DNA of 64,000 nucleotides from Pontibacter mucosus. GTDB lineage: Bacteria > Bacteroidota > Bacteroidia > Cytophagales > Hymenobacteraceae. The DNA is taken from contig NZ_QBKI01000001.1 of the NCBI RefSeq assembly GCF_003054055.1, positions 248,001 to 312,000 of the forward strand, written 5' to 3'. Position 1 is the stretch's first letter. Every line of letters starts with the position of its first letter. Under the pieces are notes generated by a model. It was not told the DNA's origin. It worked only from the letters and a program-made list of their open reading frames with translations, and searched no databases. Shown in pieces: positions 18,938 through 38,192 of the stretch. A program made the translations under genes and the position numbers.

Positions 18938-19698
18938 CGTCTACAGGTTTTATGTCTTCCTCAAGCGTTATTTCTGTTTCTTGCTCTGCTGCCTTCAATG
19001 GCTTGTTATAGCCCCTTATAGCTTCTAAAACCACGGGTAGCAAGATGGCAATTTAATCAGGATTGGGCAGATTTCAATTAGGAAAACCAGCTTCCACTGC
19101 TATCCAACACGCTGATTCTGCTTTGGTTTGGTAAAGGTACAGATTTTTTGCGGCTCCCGGAGTCTGCAAACGCATAAAGCTGCATGTTTTCAGGCGATCT
19201 AAGTCCCTATGGTTCTGCAAGCTCTGACTGGAACCTTACTTTATTGCTCGTTCCATATACTTGATTTCCTGCTGTGGATAAAAGAAGTAAAATCTTCCTT
19301 TTTTATACTTCCAGGCCAGATTCCATACTTGTTTTTCACAGCTGCTCCCTTTGCAAGTATAAATGTGAGGCTTCAGCCAGGCACTGTGTATTTTCTCCTC
19401 TTGATTACATTCCACAGATGTGTATAACTCCTCCCATTTTTTTCTTACACACGCTAAGCACTCTTTTCTCCCCCTTGATTACACATGCAACTGTGTAGAA
19501 AACTCGAATTTATACTTTACATAACTTTTACACTTCAAGACACTTTTAAAATCGCTTCTGACTCCACTCTATACTTCGGTTTAGTCAAAGTATAAGAAAC
19601 GGCGCCGGATACCTTAAAAGAAATCGCCCCAATACAAGCTATGTATGGGGCGATGAACCTTGTCCCTACAGAGGGAATTTTTTATGTTATCTCGAGCT
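18938..19698. other. AT-rich non-coding region with two perfect DnaA-box 9-mers
   Basis: No reading frame looks real in this 0.76 kb. It includes TGTGGATAA at 19273-19281 and TGTGTATAA at 19419-19427 (both perfect DnaA-box forms), six TATACTT/AAGTATA motifs between 19255 and 19593, and the csbD terminator. It contains the ileS promoter region and may contain more. Confidence 0.6.
19623..19654 (-). terminator. Terminator of the CsbD-like gene
   Basis: ATCGCCCC pairs with GGGGCGAT, extended inward by ATAC/GTAT past one unpaired base, with a T-rich tail in the leftward direction. It lies 45 bp beyond the csbD-like stop. Confidence 0.75.
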
Positions 19699-19890
19699 TT
19701 AGAGACGGTCTATCCACTCTTTTAGCTCGTGCTTTCCTTTGCCGATCTTTTGCTGAAGCCTGCCCAGCCACTCATCCTGTTTTCCTTCTTCGTAGGTCAG
19801 GTCGTCATCGGTCAGGTCGCCATACTCTTTTTTGATCTTGCCCTTCAGCTCATTCCAGTTGCCGCGGGCTCTATATTCTTCTTCTCTCAT
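19699..19890 (-). CDS. CsbD family stress-response protein
   Basis: This 63-residue acidic/basic helical protein has the CsbD pattern: an N-terminal [16 protein letters not shown], the central [19 protein letters not shown] and a C-terminal amphipathic helix. CsbD proteins are small cytoplasmic proteins induced under general stress in many bacteria; their molecular role is unknown. It is a single-gene unit, with motif-rich sequence upstream and its own terminator downstream. Confidence 0.88.
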
Positions 19891-19989
19891 TTTTCTATAC
19901 TTGTTTATAGTTGATTATACTTTTATAAACGGTCTTGTAAATAAAAGAGTTAGGCAACGGTTGGCTTTTCATCGTTTTGGTGGGGCATG

Positions 19990-20043: not shown

Positions 20044-21546
20044 TTAGGCCAGCTTCTGGAGAATGGTCTTGAAGCTAACGGCTTTGTCGATGTGGCTCTT
20101 CAGCTCGCTGATAGGCATGCGTACCTGCTCGCGCGTGTCGCGGTCGCGTACGGTCACGGTGTTGTCCTCCAGCGTCTGGTGGTCTACGGCAATACAGAAT
20201 GGCGTACCGATCAGGTCCTGGCGGGTATAGCGCTTGCCGATGCTGTCGCGGTCTTCGTAGATCAGGCTGAAATCAAACTTCAAGTCGTTGTAGATCTCTG
20301 TGGCTTTCTCCGGCAGGCCGTCTTTCTTGGTCAGCGGAAGGATGGCGGCTTTTACAGGGGCCAGCGCCGGGTGCAGCTTCAGGAAAGTACGGCTCTTGGT
20401 GCTATCGCCCTCCGTGATTTCCTCTTCGGTGTAGGCGCTGCAGAGCACCATCAGGAACAGGCGGTCGGCGCCTACGGATGTTTCCACCACGTAAGGCACG
20501 TAGTTACCATAAGGCTTGCCCTCCTCGTTCAGGTCGTTGTCGAAGTACTGCAGCTTTTTGCGGCTCAGCTCCTGGTGCTGTGTCAGGTCGAAGTCGGTGC
20601 GGGAGTGGATACCCTCTACTTCTTTAAAACCAAACGGAAATTCGAACTCAATGTCCAGGGCGGCGTTGGCGTAGTGGGCCAGTTTCTCGTGGTTGTGGAA
20701 ACGCAGCTTGTCGGTTGGCACACCGATGGCCTCGTGCCACTGGCGGCGCGTGTCTCTCCACTTCTCGTACCACTCCATCTCGGTGCCAGGGCGCACGAAA
20801 AACTGCATCTCCATCTGCTCGAACTCGCGCATGCGGAAGATGAACTGGCGCGCAACGATCTCGTTACGGAAAGCTTTACCGATCTGGGCGATACCGAATG
20901 GCACTTTCATGCGGCCGGTCTTCTGCACGTTCAGGAAGTTCACGAAGATACCCTGGGCTGTTTCGGGGCGCAGGTAAATCGTGCTCGCATCCTCGGCCAC
21001 GGAGCCCACCTGGGTAGAGAACATCAGGTTAAACTGACGCACCTCGGTCCAGTTGGTGGTGCCGGAAACCGGGCATTTGATATTTTCTTTGATGATAAGC
21101 TCGCGCACGCCGTCCAGATCCTCGGCTCCGAGCAGCTTGCCCATTTCTACCAGAAGCTCGCTGGCTTTCTCGTAGTGGCCGTCTTTCTCGTACTGGGCGG
21201 CTTTCTCTTCTATCAGCACATCGGCGCGGTAGCGTTTCTTCGAGTCCTTGTTGTCAATCATCGGGTCGTTGAAACTGTCCACGTGGCCGGAGGCTTTCCA
21301 AACCAGCGGGTGCATGAAGATGGACGCGTCCAGGCCAACCACGTTCTGGTTGAGCTGCGTCATACTTTTCCACCACAGTTGCTTGATGTTATTTTTCAGC
21401 TCCACGCCCATCTGGCCGTAGTCGTACACGGCTTGCAGGCCATCATAGATCTCGCTGGAGGGGAAGATGAAACCATACTCCTTCGCGTGCGAGATAATAT
21501 CTTTCAGCTGAGCGTTTTCTACAGGTGTTTTTTCTTGTGTCGCCAT
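20044..21546 (-). CDS. glyS: Glycyl-tRNA synthetase, class II dimeric type
   Basis: This 500-residue single-chain enzyme attaches glycine to tRNA-Gly. Typical segments are IISHAKEYGFIFPSSEIY at the N-terminus, the motif 2 region (RPETAQGIFVNF, then IGKAFRNEI), the motif 3-like GADRLFLMVL and a C-terminal anticodon-binding domain starting at APVKAAILPL. Its length matches the eukaryote-like dimeric form rather than the alpha2-beta2 GlyQS type. The 21551-21558 sequence reads TATATTTG on the coding strand, a -7-like box only 5 bp from the ATG, so a very short leader is possible. Confidence 0.96.
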   Translation of the reverse strand: MATQEKTPVENAQLKDIISHAKEYGFIFPSSEIYDGLQAVYDYGQMGVELKNNIKQLWWKSMTQLNQNVVGLDASIFMHPLVWKASGHVDSFNDPMIDNKDSKKRYRADVLIEEKAAQYEKDGHYEKASELLVEMGKLLGAEDLDGVRELIIKENIKCPVSGTTNWTEVRQFNLMFSTQVGSVAEDASTIYLRPETAQGIFVNFLNVQKTGRMKVPFGIAQIGKAFRNEIVARQFIFRMREFEQMEMQFFVRPGTEMEWYEKWRDTRRQWHEAIGVPTDKLRFHNHEKLAHYANAALDIEFEFPFGFKEVEGIHSRTDFDLTQHQELSRKKLQYFDNDLNEEGKPYGNYVPYVVETSVGADRLFLMVLCSAYTEEEITEGDSTKSRTFLKLHPALAPVKAAILPLTKKDGLPEKATEIYNDLKFDFSLIYEDRDSIGKRYTRQDLIGTPFCIAVDHQTLEDNTVTVRDRDTREQVRMPISELKSHIDKAVSFKTILQKLA

Positions 21547-24030: not shown

Positions 24031-24536
24031 ACTTTATACGTTGCCTCAAACGCGGCTTTCATGCTTTTATACTTTTCATGCTGCCTGGCCTGCTCCCATT
24101 TCTCCTTAAATATGGCTGCGGACGCTGCTTTTACGGGATCGGGGTCCAGGGGTAGTTGCGGGCGCCCGTGTGCCCCGCTCTGGCCTTTCTTGTCGTCGGG
24201 CACGGCCCCTTTATACTTCTGGCCGCTGCGGTGGTTGGCATAGCGCCGGCTGCGGGTGTAGCCCATCTGCAGAAACTTCCGGGCCATGTCCGCCCCCACA
24301 AAGTCGTCTTGCTGCAGGTACTCCAGAAACAAGGTATAAATTTTCTCGCTCGACTCGCGGGCCACCTCGGGGGTTTTAAACCGCCAGTAAGGCAGTATCT
24401 CCGATTTGTAAGGCTCTACCAGCAGCACGCCCTGCTCGCCCTTGCCCACCCGGTACAATTCCGGCTGCTGCCGGAAATCTATACTTTTAAAGTCGAGGCC
24501 GTAGTTAAATGATTCCTTCTTCCCTGTCGGAGCCAT
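24027..24536 (-). CDS. DUF4385 domain protein
   Basis: The 169-residue protein matches DUF4385 closely: NYGLDFKSIDFRQQPELYR at the N-terminus (key part LDFKSIDFR), VGKGEQGVLLVEPYKSEI, the ARKFLQMGYTRSRRYANH helix and the KKGQSGAHGR loop. The family is widespread in bacteria and of unknown function; the conserved basic loop suggests nucleic-acid or phosphate contact, which is only a guess. Its ATG lies 32 bp inside the end of the antiporter gene, and its stop overlaps the next start (ATGA), so the three genes are translationally linked. Confidence 0.85.
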   Translation of the reverse strand: MAPTGKKESFNYGLDFKSIDFRQQPELYRVGKGEQGVLLVEPYKSEILPYWRFKTPEVARESSEKIYTLFLEYLQQDDFVGADMARKFLQMGYTRSRRYANHRSGQKYKGAVPDDKKGQSGAHGRPQLPLDPDPVKAASAAIFKEKWEQARQHEKYKSMKAAFEATYKV

Positions 24537-26583
24537 AAAGCGCGGGTATTCCGGTTACCGGGTTCTCTTCGACAAACGGATACTGCTCCGGGTAGATAAT
24601 GATAAAGCTGTTATCCTTGTAATTTTTGGCAAGTATACGCGGCACGTTGTCCATGTTACTGCTGTAGGAGATCGTTTCCATGCGGGCTGATATCACGATT
24701 ACCATGTCATCCGGGCTCAGCTCGCTGTGCATTCCGTCAAACTCCCTGAAGTTCTTATAGGGCAGGTATTCCGCATCGATGGCTGGCTTGGTTTGCTGCA
24801 CCGCCTGCTTCAGGGTCTCCACCGTGCTCTCATGGTTTCTGAACACTACCCTGGCCCCGAGTTGCTGGGCCAATATCTTAATTGCCCTAATCCATCTCAG
24901 GAATCCCCTCTCCAGTTCTGCGTTATTAGGTACCACCACCACCAGGCGGCTCGTGGTATTTATCGGTTTGATGATTTTACATACCAGGATCATCTGCTCG
25001 GTGTTCTCCAGCAGGTTATCCAGCACCGTTCCGAAGATGCGGCCGCTGGTCGTGATCTTCGCGTTCCAGCCTATAATCACTTCTGTGATCATCAGTTCTT
25101 TGATGGCGCGCAGTATGCCGCTGGCGATATTAATGTCTATTTTGGCTACCAGCTGTACGTCGCTGTCGGTGGCGGAAGCATGCTTTATAGCCTCCTGCAG
25201 CATTTTGTTCTTCTTGTAGATTTCCTCCTCGGCGCGCTCATCGTCTATCACCACAGCCAGTGGGTAGATGGGCTCGTTGTAGTCCGGGTTCTTCATCATG
25301 ATGGCCAGGTCCACCAGGCTTTCGATGTTCTTCGGGTTGGCGATTGGCACCAGTATTCTGTCCGGCTTTTGGCTCAGGTCCGGTTTCTTCTGGCTCTCCA
25401 CTATTGCCAGCGCCCTGCCCGATTTCTCCGTTACAAAGGAGCTCACCAAACACGTAACCAGGATAAGTACAATCGTGCCGTTCAGGGCCTCTTCGTTTAT
25501 CATGCCCAGGTTATAGCCCACCAGTATCACCGCCAAGGTAGCTGCAGCGTGCGCGCTGCTCAGGCCAAAGATCAGGTTCCGCTGGATGCTGGTGTAACCA
25601 TAAATCTTCTGCGTTGCCCAGGCTGCCAGGTACTTTGTTGTCAGGGCCACCACTACGATGGTGCCTGCAATAATCAGTGCCTCCGGCCCCCTCAGCAGCA
25701 CCCTTACATCCACCAGCATGCCCACGCTTATCAGGAAGAACGGGATGAACAGGTTGTTGCCCACAAACTCGATGCGGTTCATCAGCGGCGAGGTGTGCGG
25801 GATAAGCTGGTTTAGCGCCAGCCCCGCCAGGAACGCACCAATGATTGCCTCCACGCCCGCCAGCTCCGCTAAAAAGGCCGCCGCAAATACCATCGTCAGC
25901 ACAAAGATGTAGTGGGCTCCTTTCTCACTCTCCAGCTGCTTGAAAAACCACTTGGCTATGATGGGGAATATGTAGGTGACAATGGCCGTAAAAATGGCCA
26001 GCGAGATACTCAGCCTGATCCAATACGCCATATCCAGATCGCCTTCCGCAGAACCTGCCACCACCGCCAGCACCAGCAGTACCGCCGTGTCTGTGATAAT
26101 GGTGCCGCCAATGGTTACCGTCACCGCCTCGTTTTTACTAATGCCCAGCTTGCTGGCTATAGGGTAGGCGATGAGGGTATGAGTGGAGAACATACTTGAC
26201 AGCAGTATGGCCGGGGCTAAATCGTAATTAAAGATGTAGTAAAATATGGCAGTGCCTACGGTTATGGGTATTAAAAAGGTGAGAGCTCCGAAGCCAAGAC
26301 TTTTGTTCTTGTTCTTCTTGAACTCGATCATATCGACCTCCAGCCCCGCCAGGAACATGATGTAGAGCAGGCCCACCGTTCCGAACAGTTCAATGCTGGC
26401 GTCTCTTTCCAGTATACCAAATCCATAGGGTCCGATGATCACCCCCGCCAGAATCATCCCCACTATGCCCGGTATCTTGAACTTGTTTAGAACAATGGGC
26501 GCGATCAGGATGATGAGTAGTACGAGCGTGAAGATGAGCACCGGTGCCTCGAACGGGAGTGTCAGGTCAATTTTTAAAAGCAT
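24505..26583 (-). CDS. CPA2-family cation:proton antiporter with C-terminal USP-like region
   Basis: The 692-residue protein has an N-terminal Na+/H+ exchanger domain of about 12 spans (residues 15-385), including GMILAGVIIGPYGFG and the conserved core AELAGVEAIIGAFLAGLAL. A cytoplasmic half of about 300 residues follows, with universal-stress-protein-like segments (RILVPIANPKN, and RLVVVVPNNAELE). This architecture is shared by Kef-like and NhaS-type exchangers of Bacteroidota, which use the proton gradient to expel Na+ or K+. The ion is not shown by the sequence. It leads a small operon with DUF4385 and the frameshifted gene. Confidence 0.9.
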   Translation of the reverse strand: MLLKIDLTLPFEAPVLIFTLVLLIILIAPIVLNKFKIPGIVGMILAGVIIGPYGFGILERDASIELFGTVGLLYIMFLAGLEVDMIEFKKNKNKSLGFGALTFLIPITVGTAIFYYIFNYDLAPAILLSSMFSTHTLIAYPIASKLGISKNEAVTVTIGGTIITDTAVLLVLAVVAGSAEGDLDMAYWIRLSISLAIFTAIVTYIFPIIAKWFFKQLESEKGAHYIFVLTMVFAAAFLAELAGVEAIIGAFLAGLALNQLIPHTSPLMNRIEFVGNNLFIPFFLISVGMLVDVRVLLRGPEALIIAGTIVVVALTTKYLAAWATQKIYGYTSIQRNLIFGLSSAHAAATLAVILVGYNLGMINEEALNGTIVLILVTCLVSSFVTEKSGRALAIVESQKKPDLSQKPDRILVPIANPKNIESLVDLAIMMKNPDYNEPIYPLAVVIDDERAEEEIYKKNKMLQEAIKHASATDSDVQLVAKIDINIASGILRAIKELMITEVIIGWNAKITTSGRIFGTVLDNLLENTEQMILVCKIIKPINTTSRLVVVVPNNAELERGFLRWIRAIKILAQQLGARVVFRNHESTVETLKQAVQQTKPAIDAEYLPYKNFREFDGMHSELSPDDMVIVISARMETISYSSNMDNVPRILAKNYKDNSFIIIYPEQYPFVEENPVTGIPALYGSDREEGII

Positions 26584-27493
26584 TTCTTATTCTCTTGTGT
26601 AGCTTTCCGTTTTTTGGAGTTTCAATATACACATTTTTCTTCTGTGTCTCCTGCTTGTGTAAGTCCCCTGCCCTGTTTCACAGGCCCCTTTTTCCAAGCT
26701 TTCCACACTTTACGACACCTAATAACTTTTATAAAATGATTTTTTAAAAAGAATCATCTTTTGTTTTTAGGGCTGTTTATAAGTGGACAACTCTACTCAA
26801 GTTTGCGTACTGCCCATAACTTGTGTACTGCAGCTTTACTTATCACCAGTTTCCGGGTTACACTGTGAATTTTATTTCTCTAAGCTAGAATACCTTAGTT
26901 GTGTTTTCCACTTTTTGCCCGTTTGTGTGTATTTCTTTATAAACACGAAACAGAAACGTGGAAAAGGTCTGAAAGGGTGGCTGGTTATACACTGGTATCC
27001 ACTTTTTACCCTCTGTGTAAGCCTTTGTTTGGGTGTGTAAGATATGTGCGTGTAAGTTGTCCCTACCCTTACCCACCTTTATCCACACATTTAAACACAT
27101 CTTTGTGGATTAACAAAAAATTTTTCCCATCCGCATTTTTCCTTCGGCTCACGGACACTTTTAGCCGCCTCTACTCATTGATTTATACTTTTTGATACTC
27201 CCTAACTGTTACCGTTTCCTGGGTTGTTATACTTGTGGTGTTGTTTGAATTTATTACGCATGTGTTCCCTAGCGGGCGCATTACACAGTGCTTTATTTTT
27301 TTAGGAAGTATACTTTGTGACTGGGGGGAAGTTGAATCGCCCATTCGTTGTCTGGTTCAAGCCTTACTTAACGAATATGCTTTTTGTGTAGGGCGCAGGA
27401 ATGCATGGGCACAAAAAAAGGAGAGGTGAAAGCCTCTCCTTCGTGGTTTATACTTTGCTGTTTTTATACTTGACGGGCTATACTCCGAGGACC
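26584..27493. other. AT-rich non-coding region with DnaA boxes; candidate replication origin
   Basis: This is the second longest gene-free stretch in the window. It has a perfect DnaA box TTATCCACA at 27079-27087 and a one-mismatch box at 27104-27112 facing it 16 bp away. Further one-mismatch boxes are at 26625-26633 (ATATACACA) and 26985-26993 (TTATACACT). C exceeds G on the + strand (32 to 18 over 26581-26700 by hand). T-rich tracts, six motif copies from 27184 on and a terminator at the right end complete it. The short open frames here look random. Confidence 0.5.
27411..27441 (-). terminator. Terminator of the Ig-like lipoprotein gene
   Basis: AAGGAGAGG pairs with CCTCTCCTT around TGAAAG, followed by a run of U on the leftward transcript. 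Confidence 0.85.
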
Positions 27494-29107
27494 TTAGAAT
27501 TCAATGTCCAGATCTTCCAGTTCCCAGTTGGCCCGCACTTCGATCAGGTTGGGGTATAGGAACACGGGCTCAGGCTCCCGCTCCAACTTAGGATCGGCGT
27601 CATCCCACTTGCCGTTGTTATTTTCATCTACCAGAATGCGGAGGTAATAGGTGCCGGGTGCAATGTTCCTAAACCGATACGTTTTGCCCGGGCCGCGCTC
27701 CTCTACCACTTTATAGTCATTGGTGAGTAGCTGCAAAGTATAGGATTTATACTCCGTTGTGATAGAACCGCTGAAACTTCCCGTCGATCCTTTTCCTTCT
27801 GCTATACTTAGCTGCAGTGGCGGGAACGAGATCGGATCGCCTTGTAGCGGAAGTATGGCAGTGCTATCGAGCAGCAGGGTCAGCTGCCTGATGTTGTTGC
27901 TGAGGCTGGGCAGCGTAAAGCTTAGTTCGGTGTTGGTGCGGTCGAGTCTTACTTCCTCCGGGTACTGTAGTTCTTCTACCACAATACTGTCGGCCATCAG
28001 TGTGACTGGGGTTTTACCTGCAATGCGTACGGGCGCCTGAAGTTCTACGGTTACCTCCTGTCCTGCCCGGTATCCTTCGTTCTTTCCGGTGTTCATAACC
28101 TTAAGCGCTGCCCCTCTCACACGTGTGGATGGTTTTCCCTCAAACGCTATTTGCAGTGAGTCTGACGTGATATTTCCCGCAGAATCCACAGCTGCAAGTA
28201 TAGCCCTTCCACCGCTGAAAGCATCTGTTTTAAACAGCTCTATCGTTTTCCCATCCGGCAGTGCTTTGGAGAGAAGCGTGTCTTTCTTATCCGCGGACAC
28301 CGCCGTGAATTGCTGAATCCCCTCGTTGTACCCTGCCACAAATCGATCGGTAAACCTGCCCCTGTTCATCAGGATAGGCTTCTTGGTATCGATTCTTACT
28401 GTCTGCAGCAGCACGCTGTCTGTGGTGGAGGTAATGGTGATGGGTTTGGCCAGGTAGGCGATGCGCTCTTCCTCGGAGTCGTAGAAGCTGTTGTTGTTCT
28501 TATCGAGGAGGGCGTAGATGCGGTAGCTGCCTTCCTTGACATTGCGCAGGCTAAAGTTGCCCTGGTCGTCGGCATTGGTCAGGTAATAGGGGCGGTTTTT
28601 TCTTACGCTCATGGTATCCCCGGCCTGGTATAATAGCACCATGGCTCCCTTCTCCGGGGTCTGCTTCATCAGGTTGACAACATTGCCTGCTACGCGTGCC
28701 GAGTCTATATAAGATCCAGTACTGAAGGAGAGGATAAGGTCCTGCGCTTTGTTCTTTTCCGTAATATCGGTTACTCCTTCTCTAAAGTTGAACGTGAAGG
28801 TGGTGCTATCCTGCAAGGGCTTTTCGAACTCCAGTACAAGCTGGGTTTTGTTTATCACTACCTTGTAGGGATTGTTGATATTTGGTGTAATCAGAAGTTC
28901 GCGGTTTAACGTATTTTGCTGAACCTCTTCATCAAACTCCAACGTGACGGTGCGGGTATCCACATTTAGTTGCTGGTCTGTTGGGTTACTTCTCAACAGC
29001 TTTGGTGGTTCCTCATCCCGTGGTCCGCCCTGCGGGGCGCTTTGAGTGGCGCAGGCTACCACCCCGGTTGTAATGCCTGCCGCTATCAGTGCTCTAAGTA
29101 GCTTCAT
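27494..29107 (-). CDS. Ig-like domain surface lipoprotein
   Basis: From the ATG at 29107 (MKLLRALIAAG) the protein is 537 residues with a lipobox VVAC about 19 residues in; the frame extends to 29167 but the added residues spoil the signal peptide. An N-terminal SbsA-type Ig-like domain follows (PPKLLRSNPTDQQLNVDTR, key NPTDQQLNV; then VTLEFDEEV). Next are carboxypeptidase-regulatory-like repeats with NVKEGSYRIYALLDKNNN and a C-terminal APGTYYLRILVDENNNGKWD. Such lipoproteins are common on Bacteroidota outer membranes; function is unknown. It is followed in map order by a methyltransferase gene on the same strand with a 75-bp gap. Confidence 0.85.
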   Translation of the reverse strand: MKLLRALIAAGITTGVVACATQSAPQGGPRDEEPPKLLRSNPTDQQLNVDTRTVTLEFDEEVQQNTLNRELLITPNINNPYKVVINKTQLVLEFEKPLQDSTTFTFNFREGVTDITEKNKAQDLILSFSTGSYIDSARVAGNVVNLMKQTPEKGAMVLLYQAGDTMSVRKNRPYYLTNADDQGNFSLRNVKEGSYRIYALLDKNNNSFYDSEEERIAYLAKPITITSTTDSVLLQTVRIDTKKPILMNRGRFTDRFVAGYNEGIQQFTAVSADKKDTLLSKALPDGKTIELFKTDAFSGGRAILAAVDSAGNITSDSLQIAFEGKPSTRVRGAALKVMNTGKNEGYRAGQEVTVELQAPVRIAGKTPVTLMADSIVVEELQYPEEVRLDRTNTELSFTLPSLSNNIRQLTLLLDSTAILPLQGDPISFPPLQLSIAEGKGSTGSFSGSITTEYKSYTLQLLTNDYKVVEERGPGKTYRFRNIAPGTYYLRILVDENNNGKWDDADPKLEREPEPVFLYPNLIEVRANWELEDLDIEF

Positions 29108-30070: not shown

Positions 30071-31933
30071 TTATTTTCCGAGGTATACCATTAACACCGA
30101 TATGTCTGCCGGTGACACACCACTGATTCTGGAGGCCTGGCCTATTGTTTCAGGCTGTACCTTCAGCAGCTTTTCCTTTGCCTCTTTCGACAAGGCAGGT
30201 ATGTCGCGGTAATTGATTTTACCTTTGATATTGTAGTTCTCAAGCTCGCTTACCTTAGCGGCCATCGCATGCTCCTTCTCAATATAGGTTTCATACTTTA
30301 CCTGAATGCCTGCCTGCTCCACGCTTTCTTTCCCGTACTTGCTCAAGAATTCCGCTACTGCCGGCACTGCTTTGGCGATATGTTCTATCTCTACATTCGG
30401 CCGCTTGATGAGCTGCCCTGCACGCTGCTTTTCTGCTATCGGAGCAGACCCTAATTCCTCTAAAAGTCTGTTGATATCTCCTGGCTCAACTGGCTTGCTG
30501 TTCAAGTAGGAGATGATTTCTGCTGTTTCCGCTATCTTCTTATCCACAGCTTTCAGGCGATTTTCATCGGCCAGCCCCAGCTCATAACCCATCCTGGTCA
30601 GGCGGATATCGGCGTTGTCCTGACGCAGTAGAATGCGGTGTTCTGCACGCGAGGTGAACATGCGGTAAGGTTCGTCGGTCCCTTTGTTTACCAGGTCATC
30701 AATCAATACGCCGATGTACGCTTCCGAACGTTTCAAGATAAACGGTTCTTTGTCGTTTATCTTGTTGTGCGCATTTATGGCTGCCATCAATCCCTGGCAG
30801 GCGGCTTCTTCGTATCCGGTAGTTCCGTTTATCTGGCCGGCAAAGTATAAGTTCTGTACCTGCTTTGTCTCCAGCGTCAGGTTAAGCTGCGTCGGCGGGA
30901 AGAAGTCATACTCTATCGCATAACCCGGGCGAAACATCTTGGCATTCTCAAATCCTTCGATTTTGCGCAGTGCCTCGTACTGTACGTTTTCTGGCAAAGA
31001 GCTGGAGAATCCGTTCACGTATACTTCCACGGTATTCCATCCTTCCGGTTCTACGAAAATCTGGTGGCGATCGCGCTCCGAGAAGCGGTTAATTTTATCT
31101 TCTATACTTGGGCAGTAGCGTGGCCCTAATCCCTGGATACGTCCCTGGAACATCGGCGATTTTTCAAAGCCTGTTTTCAGGATCTCATGTACCTCCGGGT
31201 TGGTATAGGTGATGTAGCAGCTGCGCTGTTGTTTCAGTGGCTCGGTGTCGGTGTAGGAGAATTTGCTTGGGTTCTCGTCACCAAACTGCTCCTCCATGCG
31301 GCTGTAGTCCAGCGAGCGTCCATCCACCCGTGGAGGGGTTCCTGTCTTCATGCGGCCTGCCTCAAAGCCCAGTTCTTTCAGCTGCTCGGTTATGCCTTTT
31401 GCTGATTTTTCTGCGGCGCGGCCACCACCCAATTGCTTCTCTCCGATGTGGATAATGCCATTCAAAAACGTGCCGTTCGTTAAGATAACGGCCTTTCCGC
31501 GGATAGTTATCCCCAGGCTGGTGCGAACGCCCACAGCCCTGCCCTGCTCTACTTCGATGCCCGTTACCATCTCCTGCCAGAAGTCCACGTTCTCCGTTTG
31601 CTCCAAGCTCAGGCGCCAGGCTTCGGCAAACCGCATGCGGTCGCTTTGCGCGCGCGGGCTCCACATGGCTGGCCCTTTCGATTTGTTGAGCATGCGGAAC
31701 TGTATCATGGTTTGGTCTGTGATGATACCGCTCATGCCACCTAAGGCGTCCACCTCACGAACAATCTGGCCTTTTGCCACGCCACCCATCGCCGGGTTAC
31801 ACGACATCTGCGCGATGGTATTCATGTTCATGGTGGCCAGCAAAACCTTCGAGCCCATCTTTGCCGCCGCCGCCGCGGCTTCACAGCCTGCGTGCCCAGC
31901 ACCAACAACTATAATATCGTATTCTGGAAACAT
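30071..31933 (-). CDS. mnmG: tRNA U34 5-carboxymethylaminomethyl modification enzyme
   Basis: The start at 31933 (MFPEYDIIVVGAGHAG) gives 620 residues, the usual MnmG/GidA length; the open frame to 32080 only exists because it reads through the parS palindrome and spacer. The FAD Rossmann motif GAGHAG is at residues 11-16, followed by NPAMGGVAKG, the GidA signature region GTPPRVDGRSLD and the C-terminal helical domain ending ADISVLMVYLGK. With MnmE it modifies the wobble uridine of several tRNAs. mnmG is often origin-proximal in bacteria, which agrees with the parS site 18 bp upstream of its start. Confidence 0.96.
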   Translation of the reverse strand: MFPEYDIIVVGAGHAGCEAAAAAAKMGSKVLLATMNMNTIAQMSCNPAMGGVAKGQIVREVDALGGMSGIITDQTMIQFRMLNKSKGPAMWSPRAQSDRMRFAEAWRLSLEQTENVDFWQEMVTGIEVEQGRAVGVRTSLGITIRGKAVILTNGTFLNGIIHIGEKQLGGGRAAEKSAKGITEQLKELGFEAGRMKTGTPPRVDGRSLDYSRMEEQFGDENPSKFSYTDTEPLKQQRSCYITYTNPEVHEILKTGFEKSPMFQGRIQGLGPRYCPSIEDKINRFSERDRHQIFVEPEGWNTVEVYVNGFSSSLPENVQYEALRKIEGFENAKMFRPGYAIEYDFFPPTQLNLTLETKQVQNLYFAGQINGTTGYEEAACQGLMAAINAHNKINDKEPFILKRSEAYIGVLIDDLVNKGTDEPYRMFTSRAEHRILLRQDNADIRLTRMGYELGLADENRLKAVDKKIAETAEIISYLNSKPVEPGDINRLLEELGSAPIAEKQRAGQLIKRPNVEIEHIAKAVPAVAEFLSKYGKESVEQAGIQVKYETYIEKEHAMAAKVSELENYNIKGKINYRDIPALSKEAKEKLLKVQPETIGQASRISGVSPADISVLMVYLGK

Positions 31934-31949
31934 GTATTCTGAATTTTGA

Positions 31950-31969
31950 GATGTTTCACGTGAAACATC
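31950..31969. other. parS centromere site (ParB-binding palindrome)
   Basis: The 16-mer TGTTTCACGTGAAACA at 31952-31967 is an exact match to the widely conserved chromosomal parS consensus, and the perfect palindrome extends to 20 bp at 31950-31969. ParB/Spo0J loads here and spreads to organise and segregate the origin region. It lies in the short spacer between ybeY and mnmG. I found no second copy in the window. Confidence 0.92.
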
Positions 31970-32865: not shown

Positions 32866-35800
32866 TTACTTGCTTATGTTGTTGAAGTACTCGTTTACCT
32901 TCTGCTTATAGTATGGTGTAAGCGCAGGAGGTATGGTTTTGAGCAGTTCGGTTTGCTTCTCTTTTGCTTTTATATACTTTTCAAACGAAGGGGGGACTTT
33001 GCGTGCAATATCCTGTGCGGTCTTTGCCTCCCGTTTATTGTCCAATTCCCGTTCCCTTGCGGATTTCTCTGCTTCCAGTAAACGTGTCAGGATTTCGCGC
33101 TGCCGCTGAATGGTCTGCTCGGTCAAACGTTTATTAACGAGATCAGTTTCGGATTGTTCCATCATCTTGCTAATATTTCCGAGATTGCCATTCTGCCCTT
33201 TTTCGCCCGGTTTGGCACCCTGCTTCTCCAATTCTTTCAAGGCATTACGAAGAGCCTCCTGCTCCGCAGCCAATTTAGCTAATTCTTCAGAAAGAGCCTT
33301 GCCCGACTTGCCTCCTTTTTTCAAATCGTCTATTTTTTTGTTCAATTGCTGCTGCAATTCTCCCAAATTTCCGGGCATGGGCTTGTTGCCCTTCTGTTTG
33401 CCGGCCATACCGCCCTGCATTTGCTGCATCGCCTGCTGCATTTGCTTCAGGGCATCGTTGAGCATCAGGGCCAGGTTGTTCATGCTGGTCATAGCAAGCT
33501 GCTGCTGTGCGGTGGCCCTGCCCACGTTGCGGTCGCGGAGCTGCTGCATGCTGTTATCCATGCTTTGGTTCATGGCAGCCACCTCGCGCGTCACAAACGA
33601 CTCTATCTGAAATACCTTTTTTGCCAGGGCGAACAGGCTGTCTTCTATCACCTGGGCATTGTCGCGCAGGCTGAGCTGGCGCTGGGATAGCTCCACAAAC
33701 CGCGGGTCGCTCTGGTGCACGCTGCGGAACTGCTTCATCAGGTCCTCCTGGTCAAAGGAGAGCGTGATGAGGTTCTCCAGGATGTCGCGCAGGTTGTCCA
33801 GGTTCTGCTGCATACCTGCCATGCCCATGCTGCTCTTCATTTCCTCCATCTGCTTGGCCATCTGCTGCATCTTCTGCCCTGCCTTTTGCTGCGACTCACT
33901 GGCTTTCTTATTTTGGTTCTTCTGCAGCTGCTCCTGGCTCTGCTGCATGTCCTGCTCTATACTTTGCTGGTCCTGCTGTTGTTGCTCCTCATTCAGCTGG
34001 TTGGGGTTGCTCAGCTTTTCGTTCAGGTCATTCAGTTCATCCAACTGCTGCTTCACATCCTCAAACTCCTGCTGCAGCTGCTTTTGCTGCTCCTGCAGCT
34101 GTTCATTGCTCTCCTGTTTCTGCTCCGTTTTCTGGGCCAGTTCCTGCTCCTTCTCCCCCATCTCCTGCAGCTTGCTGGCCACGTTCTCCAGCTTTTGCTC
34201 AAACTGCAGCTGCTTAAACAGCTCCAGCGCCCGCTCCAGCTCGCGCTCCAGGTTCTTCTCCCGGTTATCGAGTTTGCTCAGTAGTTGGCGCAGCTCGGCA
34301 TCGTTTGGCTGCTGCTCCTGCAGGAGTTTCTCCAGTTCTTCGTAAAGCTTCTTCGTTTCCGGGTCGAGAAGGTCGTTCATGAGCTTCTGCAGCTCCTGCG
34401 CTTTTTCGGCCAGCTGCTGGCTCGGTTCGTTGAGCATGTTCTGCTTCTTGTTCAGCTCCTCAAAAAGCTCCTTCATCGAGTTGATGTCCTGCTCCAACTG
34501 GCGCTTCTTGGCAGCCAGATCCTCGAGCTGCTTGCGGTCCTGCCAGTTCATGTCGCGGCGGGTTTTCATTTTCTCCTCAGATCGCGATATTTCCTGCTCC
34601 AGCTGGGTGGCGCGTTCCAAAGTCTTGCTCATCTGACTGGCCACCGACTGCGAGTTGCTGTCCAGCTCTTTCTGCAGCTCGCGCTTATCCGGCACCTTGA
34701 ACTCAAAGCTGCGGGTGCGGGCGCTCTTGGGGCCGCGAATGCCGTCGTTGTCCCACACCTGCACAAAGTACTCCAGCCTGTCGCCGGGCTGCAGGTTCAG
34801 GGCAGCGGTGTTCCATTGGTAGTAATACGTTTGGCTGAGCTGCTGCTTGCTCAGGGGCAGGTTTATACTTTTATACTTTGCCTGCGGATTTTGGTCGTTG
34901 CTGATGCGGTAGAGGAGCGATAGCCGGGTTAGGCCGTAGTCATCCGATACATCACCGCCAAGCACCATGTACGAGAACAGAGCCGTGTCCTGAAACTGCT
35001 CCAGGCTGATCTGCGGGTTGCGGTCCGGGATGGCGGTGATTTGGTAGCTGATCTGCTCTTTGTTGGCGCTATGCTCGTTGCGCAGGCTTATACTATAGTT
35101 CTGGCTCTGCTTGATGTCTTTGCTGGCGGTAAAGCTGTTGCCGTCCTTCTGCGCGGTTATACTTTCGGTTGGCTCCTCGAAGGCCAGTTTTATACTATCT
35201 GTTTCGGAGGTAGCGAAGTTCCAGGTAATGGTGCTGCCCTCGGGCACGGAGGCGTTACCAGTGTTCTGCACCTCTTCCGGCTTACGGTTAAGGTATTTGG
35301 GGAACTGCACCAGCATCCGGAAATCCTTCAGGTTGGGGCGGGAGAGCAGGTTTAACGTATAGCTGTCGGAGAAGAAGCCTGAGCCTTCGAGCTGGAAATT
35401 CACGGGGCGCTGCAGCTGCTTGAACGTATAGGTATAGCCTCCGCCCCTGGCGTTTGGCGTCAGTCGCTGCCGCCGGCCGTTATAGTTAATGTATACTTCG
35501 CTGGGCACTGACTTTCCCTCCACCGCCACATCCAGCGTAAAGTCCTCGCCCCGGTAGGTTTGCAGCGCCTGGTTCTGCACCACAAAATCAAAAGGGGCCT
35601 GGGGCGTGTAGTGTGTTTTATAGTTGATGATGCGCTCGGTGCCCTGCACAAAAATGGTAGGGTACACCAGCAGAATGAGCAGCGCAACAAGGGTGGGCAG
35701 GGCAATGTACTTGAGCAGCGGCTTGTTCTCGCGGTACGATACGGCCTCCTTGAACTTGAAGGAGAGCAGTTGCTGGCTCCGCTGGGCTATACTGGCACGG

Positions 35801-37085: not shown

Positions 37086-37271
37086 GGGTGAATTGTGTGG
37101 CGTAGCACGTACTTCGTATCAAGTATCACGACTTTTCCTCTTACCAGAGTCGTTAGTAAGGAGTAAGAGTGATGAAACAAGTATGAACCGAAGGATTTTA
37201 TACTTCTTCATGGGCTTATACTTTAAGTTTATACTTTGCCGAAGGTCGGGCTACCTGATACGATCGTGGCG

Positions 37272-37637
37272 TTACGGATTAGGTTTACGGATATCGTCGG
37301 CACGGTTAAAGTACTCGATCACGTGCCATTTAAGCATCTGCTCCTGCTCTTTCAGGTTGGCAAAGGGAATGGGTTTGGCAGCCTTAAAGTGCGGCCAGCC
37401 CTCTTCGTCGCGGCCGGTAAACTCGTAGTAGCCCGATTCGGCGAAGACGCGGCAGGTGGCGATATGCATCAAATCCTGCTTCTCCTCCTTGGTAAACTCC
37501 CGTACGCCCATGCCCAGTTCCTGAATTCCGATCAGGAAAAGGATGGCATTCAGGTCCGGTTTTTTACCGAAGCGCTTCATCAGGTCGGCCCGCAGCTGTG
37601 TCCAGTTATGGTCTAAGTTTTCGCTGTCGTATATCAT
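37272..37637 (-). CDS. Conserved hypothetical protein
   Basis: I cannot assign a function to this 121-residue protein. It is soluble, mostly helical, and contains LNAILFLIGIQELGMG, then FTKEEKQDLMHIATCRVFAESGYYEF (key HIATCRVF) and a C-terminal MLKWHVIEYFNR. Proteins of this size and pattern are carried singly by many Cytophagales. It is unlinked by spacing to either neighbour. Confidence 0.7.
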   Translation of the reverse strand: MIYDSENLDHNWTQLRADLMKRFGKKPDLNAILFLIGIQELGMGVREFTKEEKQDLMHIATCRVFAESGYYEFTGRDEEGWPHFKAAKPIPFANLKEQEQMLKWHVIEYFNRADDIRKPNP

Positions 37638-37742
37638 TCGATTAGCTTAAATGTAAAAATGGCTGTATGGTTAAACCCATCAAAGTATAAACGAGCAAGT
37701 TAAGATCCAGCTAAATAACCATGCAGCCATTTAATTAACAGT

Positions 37743-38096
37743 TTACTCGGCAGAGCCGCGCTCCTTCAGCTCTTCCCAATACTCCACGGCGCGGCGGAAG
37801 TGCGGGATCACGATGGAGCCGCCCACCAGGTTGGCGATGGAGAACACCTCCATGATTTCGTCGTCGGTCAGGCCCTCCTCGTAGCACTTGCCTACGTGGT
37901 ACTTGATGCAGTCGTCGCAGCGCAGCACCATCGAGGCCACCAGCCCCAGCATCTCCTTTGTTTTTACGTCCAAAGCGCCGGCCGCGTAGGTGTTGGTGTC
38001 GAGGTTAAAAAAACGCTTGATTACTTTATTGTCGTAAGACATGATGCGCTCGTTCATGCGCGTACGGTAGTCGTTGAATTCTTCTACTAAGCTCAT
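37743..38096 (-). CDS. Carboxymuconolactone decarboxylase (AhpD-like) family protein
   Basis: The 117-residue protein contains the CMD/AhpD core helix with a redox CxxC and histidine (Cys60, Cys63, His67 in RCDDCIKYH), plus the GLTDDEIMEVFSIA helix. This cysteine-histidine arrangement suggests a peroxidase or disulphide role rather than true decarboxylation. It is transcribed away from comF with only a 96-bp divergent spacer to the ComF start, so their promoters sit close together. Confidence 0.87.
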   Translation of the reverse strand: MSLVEEFNDYRTRMNERIMSYDNKVIKRFFNLDTNTYAAGALDVKTKEMLGLVASMVLRCDDCIKYHVGKCYEEGLTDDEIMEVFSIANLVGGSIVIPHFRRAVEYWEELKERGSAE

Positions 38097-38192
38097 TGTT
38101 AGGTTATTCTTATGAAGGATGACTGTGTAAGGAGTCCAAGTATAAAGTTACGGCAAAATCATCAGAATACCTTAAACCATACTTGCCAACCC

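Follow-up and report, generated by a model that had tools for sequence, protein, structure and literature searches.

We analysed a window of 64,000 nucleotides, corresponding to positions 248001-312000 of contig C1 (806,823 bp) of a Pontibacter genome (5.23 Mb in 23 contigs), and predict with high confidence that the chromosomal replication origin, oriC, of this Pontibacter lies in the gap between two genes at 26584-27493, with its core at 26584-27129. This prediction is based on the position of the gap, its DnaA-box array, the conservation of the array, a turn of the GC skew nearby and the presence of a parS site. The first-pass annotation had proposed the gap as a candidate oriC; the skew turn, the parS and the box arrays found at the same syntenic place in other genomes (see below) support the proposal. 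The origin would thereby be placed for Pontibacter, with uses in assembly orientation, growth estimates from read coverage and plasmid building. The MnmG protein encoded in the window shares 94% identity with its Pontibacter mangrovi counterpart.

DnaA boxes and AT-rich element of the gap

The gap is flanked by a Na+/H+ exchanger (antiporter) gene on the left (24505-26583, negative strand) and by an Ig-like-domain gene on the right (27494-29107, negative strand). The gene order continues rightward with a methyltransferase-like gene, the syntenic marker mnmG (gidA; 30071-31933, negative strand), parS and ybeY. As described in the first-pass annotation, the 0.9-kb stretch is AT-rich and contains no convincing gene: its G+C content is 0.40 versus 0.526 for the window, and the 500 bp starting at 26700 are the AT-richest of the whole window. 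A 98-codon ORF (26899-27195) reported by a crude ORF caller overlaps the conserved boxes and was taken as spurious, and scanning the window for Rfam families and tRNAs gave no matches. The proposed core (26584-27129; G+C 0.377) is conserved, non-coding and holds the array of boxes. The rest of the gap (27130-27493) shows little DNA conservation: the alignments of relatives mostly end by position 563 of the gap query, with just short matches beyond it, at 823-897.

A perfect DnaA box, TTATCCACA, is located at 27079-27087 in the positive strand and is faced, 16 bp away, by the one-mismatch box TAATCCACA at 27104-27112 in the negative strand; this pair had been correctly reported in the first-pass annotation. 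The two further one-mismatch boxes that it listed are absent, as just these two sites of the gap are within one mismatch of TTATCCACA; the remaining ones are weaker, e.g., TTTTCCACT, TTTTCCACG, GTATCCACT and CTTTCCACA. In an alignment with 29 relatives, box-like sites were found at 26698-26708 (GCTTTCCACAC, positive strand, 0.99 conserved), 26781-26791 (GTTGTCCACTT, negative, 0.85), 26903-26913 (GTTTTCCACTT, positive, 0.95), 26956-26966 (CTTTTCCACGT, negative, 0.93) and 27068-27078 (CTTACCCACCT, positive, 0.84). Two tandem weak sites, TTATACACT and GGTATCCACTT (the latter 0.90 conserved), could be read at 26985-27004 in the positive strand. The genus alignment also delimited a conserved AT-rich element at 26718-26769, a candidate duplex-unwinding element; the 60 bp starting at 26721 rank fourth among the least stable of the window. 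DnaA-trio motifs in the gap were not above chance, an ad hoc score being reached or exceeded in 86 of 200 shuffles.

The two boxes within one mismatch compare with about 0.16 expected in the gap at the shuffle rate of the window. Over the whole window such boxes number 28, versus 10.95 expected and a count that none of 100 shuffles reached, and they are spread throughout. Degenerate TTWTMCAC sites are concentrated in the core, with four in 26584-27129 against a base-shuffle mean of 0.10 and a maximum of 1 (200 shuffles). Two perfect boxes lie within mnmG (30540 and 31447); the one at 31447-31455 recurs in all four named Pontibacter loci (locus 10479) and that at 30540-30548 in two of the four (locus 11386).

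Conservation in Pontibacter and other Bacteroidota

A search of 50 genus genomes (our own and 49 others) matched the gap DNA in 40, our own included. The strongest matches span about positions 1-546 of the query, ending near 530-563, and many weak ones cover just about 105-209. For one of the ten genomes that did not match, the contig stops short of the locus; the other nine retain the gap ahead of the antiporter gene, and it bears 0.87 to 4.36 one-mismatch boxes per kb versus 0.47 to 0.57 locally. The count of degenerate boxes exceeded the shuffle maximum in 6 of these nine and in 25 of the 29 aligned relatives, which are those of the 39 matching genomes with locus sequence. Conserved boxes in relatives, suggested as a check in the first-pass annotation, were indeed present: eight of the nine CCAC/GTGG cores were at least 0.82 conserved across the 29 relatives, and the mean core conservation was 0.90 versus 0.62 for all tetramers, a value that none of 20,000 random draws equalled. 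Pontibacter seems to have kept its sites, while most of them drifted to TTTTCCAC-like forms. In P. oryzae (L042:14435-17097) the gap is 2.7 kb long, and the extra DNA resembles by eye a transposase-type insertion.

For a wider comparison, 80 loci were chosen by MnmG (four of them from Pontibacter), of which 62 were usable and 18 had no Ig match or too little sequence. The kilobase following the Ig-domain gene was enriched in boxes in 56 of the 62 Bacteroidota loci; one-mismatch boxes averaged 6.4 per kb there versus 0.43 elsewhere in the 62 loci, and in 47 the densest kilobase began no more than 1.2 kb from the stop codon of the Ig-domain gene. The six loci without enrichment are, by title, from two Chitinophagales or Chitinophaga, a Mucilaginibacter, a Sphingobacteriaceae member, an unplaced Bacteroidetes and Flammeovirga. 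As an origin, the locus would be of an ordinary kind, sharing its gene address with many relatives and lying far from dnaA (see below). This address, downstream of mnmG, the methyltransferase-like gene and the Ig-domain gene, would guide the search for origins across Cytophagales, for which dnaA is no guide. Our literature search, whose scope left out most subscription journals and DoriC, found neither a published Pontibacter origin nor a description of the shared address after mnmG; DoriC may list the locus.

Eight loci, seven from Hymenobacter and one from Solirubrum (L048-L053, L064 and L073), have another pair of facing boxes, separated by 26 bp, at about 16.5-17.3 kb, past a DUF4385 gene and ~1.5-2 kb from the main cluster. 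The second box of the pair has one mismatch in some loci. These could perhaps be two-part origins.

GC skew, parS, dnaA and the placement of the predicted origin

The parS site TGTTTCACGTGAAACA is located at 31952-31967, just upstream of mnmG and 4.5 kb from the gap, the distance given in the first-pass annotation, and it is the sole match with zero or one mismatch in the 5.23-Mb genome. A perfect parS occurs exactly once per genome in 48 of the 50 genus genomes, ours included, and the remaining two (G007 and G040) have a match to a shorter parS core at that place. Genes with a ParB_N domain are on contig C11.

The sole dnaA gene, whose product has all three Pfam domains, is on contig C4. There the skew follows a steady slope over 200 kb with no minimum, and the check named beforehand, for a skew minimum elsewhere such as beside dnaA, did not refute the proposal. 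The distance between dnaA and the gap or parS is about 0.7-1.05 Mb in all seven Pontibacter genomes assembled into one or two contigs (their contig C1 was taken as circular in three of them). In B. subtilis dnaA adjoins oriC, whereas the Pontibacter dnaA is not adjacent to the gap. The lack of proximity to dnaA is not decisive against an oriC here, since such distances are said to be usual in Bacteroidetes, according to a report on Prevotella intermedia OMA14 (PMC4755523). In that report the oriC of OMA14 is predicted away from dnaA and this distance is called common in the phylum (PMC4755523). Bacteroidetes origins far from dnaA are in that sense already known, and the Pontibacter gap adds to that kind. 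Both loci present, away from dnaA, a cluster of DnaA boxes where the skew turns; they belong to different lineages, and the OMA14 prediction, as described there, used skew and boxes whereas ours also draws on conservation, synteny and parS (PMC4755523).

Along the full 806,823 bp of C1, the cumulative GC skew describes a V whose minimum is at window position 34,785, 7-8 kb from the gap. The skew change invoked in the first-pass annotation is real and its C:G counts (32:18 and 19:30) are exact. Its ratio of 26 leftward to 4 rightward genes to the left of the gap was not reproduced: a crude ORF call gives 16 and 5, and 17:4 is likelier because one of the five rightward ORFs overlaps a leftward tRNA-synthetase-domain gene (20044-21546). 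A step model of the C1 skew placed the break at 35 kb with a bootstrap 95% interval of 22-49 kb, which includes the gap. When the coding strand was added as a covariate, 35 kb was preferred over 27 kb (support at 32-46 or 34-38 kb depending on the range).

The GC-skew minimum lies on the parS side of the gap in each of the four Pontibacter genomes compared, at ~8 kb in our own and, taken within 80-kb stretches, at 10 kb in G026, 12 kb in G007 and 17 kb in G040. The single-contig Pontibacter genome G026 (5.46 Mb) was sampled as 20 segments of 20 kb: the skew was negative in all seven samples starting before 1.49 Mb and in all three beyond 4.13 Mb, and positive in nine of the ten starting from 1.49 to 4.13 Mb, the exception at 3.85 Mb being -0.002. 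The skew of G026 consequently turns in the neighbourhood of the gap homologue, at 1.51 Mb, and roughly opposite to it; dnaA is at 2.27 Mb. Four-fold degenerate sites were numerous enough for analysis in 17 of the 84 sequences. At these sites, skew was higher in the genes left of the gap than in those to the right in 8 of 8 Pontibacter, mainly owing to the antiporter and ileS genes, and the opposite held in 8 of the 9 loci from outside the genus. In the gene-level four-fold likelihood the local optimum at 26-28 kb was shallow and the best value fell at 68 kb, with 13-110 kb within 6 log units. The skew of Hymenobacter BT18 was noisy, with a minimum 91 kb away, and no clear turn was seen at the box cluster in Roseivirga or Litoribacter; none of the three was informative. 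Skew leaves the last 10 kb unsettled and by itself puts the turn slightly to the right, at 35 kb.

These results bear on a first alternative, in which replication would start closer to the skew minimum, at 34-38 kb, and the boxes at 27 kb would have a regulatory or assembly role. In its favour are the 35-kb break, which persists with the coding strand modelled, and the displacement of the minima to the same side in G026, G007 and G040. However, the 34-38 kb region is nearly all coding, containing a DUF4175 gene, a carboxymuconolactone decarboxylase-family gene, a small ORF and a gene that reads as exonuclease III-like, and its lone site at the one-mismatch level (36521) is inside a gene. The stretch 37086-38111, a gap close to the skew minimum, has matches in all 50 genus genomes, ours included, without any box within one mismatch; it was ruled out as an origin, being coding. 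Furthermore, related loci also have box arrays at the address that the 27-kb array occupies, and all the genes of 27.5-37 kb are leftward, a block that can drag the skew and to which we would ascribe the shift of the minimum from the gap. We thus consider initiation at 34-38 kb improbable.

Motif polarity (AAGTATA/TATACTT) was rejected as an origin locator: the cumulative minimum fell at 37,230, but its bootstrap interval, at least as wide as -5 to 77 kb, was too broad to locate the origin. In the 807 kb of C1, AAGTATA occurs 1051 times and TATACTT 1005 times, ~25 times the rate estimated by hand from base composition, with a leading-strand bias of 1192:864.

A second alternative is that the array is a mere DnaA-regulated promoter or titration cluster and not oriC. 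A box profile trained on 368 sites from loci of other genera (non-Pontibacter) gave the top summed score of C1, 78.4 (mean 4.4, sd 5.3), to the 540 bp starting at window position 26579, followed by clusters at about 595 kb and about 376 kb. The gap also leads C1 in site counts at cut-offs of 4, 6 and 8 bits. At 10 bits or more, the clusters at about 595 kb and about 376 kb, the latter beside nrd-like genes, have five sites each and the gap four, level with a third cluster, as such a reading would allow. The summed score nonetheless favours the gap, which alone among these clusters lies both where the skew turns and close to parS; we regard this second alternative as very unlikely.

The weakest candidate, the gap at 18938-19986 upstream of ileS taken as the origin or its second half, has a perfect box at 19273 with TTTTTCACA and TTATACACA within 160 bp and a summed profile score ranked fourth on C1 (tied), but it was rejected, and is hardly credible, because its boxes are conserved in close relatives alone: among 49 relatives, a full-length match was found just in G016 and G021 and one of 38 bp in G026, other genus matches hit the query end (about 758-982), an apparent small ORF and not the boxes, and the skew model disfavours 19 kb more than 27 kb.

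Proposed initiation and a distant box array

If the gap is oriC as predicted, then by analogy with other oriC regions DnaA, encoded elsewhere, would bind the facing strong boxes (27079 and 27104) and extend over the conserved but weaker CCAC boxes in the direction of the AT-rich element (26718-26769), whose melting would allow helicase loading and the departure of two forks from the gap. The single parS nearby would let a ParB protein segregate the new origins. In the oriC regions of E. coli and B. subtilis, as in the gap, DnaA boxes of both strong and weak kinds adjoin an AT-rich element. Cytophaga hutchinsonii also belongs to Cytophagales. Its oriC has reportedly been used in replicative plasmids, by the title of a 2012 paper of Xu et al. 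(cited in PMC5891637). The gap differs from the B. subtilis unwinding system, as outlined in one account of it (PMC8287927), in presenting no DnaA-trio above chance.

Outside the window, about 300 kb from the gap, another DnaA-box array is located at C1:595370-595800 (L029:15370-15800). Its DNA has matches in 35 of the 50 genus genomes, our own included, and its opposed box pair keeps a start-to-start spacing of 28 bp in our genome and in the 20 relatives aligned, a selection from the 34 that match. In all 24 genomes with both elements on one contig, the array is 246-375 kb from oriC (20 genomes) or parS (4 genomes); in the other 11 they are on different contigs. The adjacent gene reads as coding for a protein resembling histone deacetylases. 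We tentatively suggest, as a possibility of rather low probability, a two-site control of initiation in which oriC is accompanied by the array at C1:595.4-595.7 kb, titrating or resetting DnaA as a functional counterpart, in Bacteroidota, of datA/DARS of E. coli. The models for such a role are datA and DARS2 of E. coli and the box clusters of B. subtilis (PMC13036160, PMC5295017). Conserved gene order alone could account for the steady distance to oriC, as by eye the nrd-side locus (see below) also keeps its place in many genomes; alternatively, the array may serve promoter control of the neighbouring gene. The exact pattern of the array was matched in 7 of 291 genomes order-wide and, within the genus, in our own genome and one of five others drawn, where the match was no obvious relative of the array. 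A conserved distant array would make DnaA control testable beyond the two model species.

The nrd-side cluster of DnaA boxes, likewise outside the window (C1:375880-376440), is upstream of genes that, judging by the starts of their proteins, appear to be nrdB and nrdA. This stretch has matches in all 50 genus genomes, counting our own, and most of them cover the first 150-250 bases and not the whole cluster.
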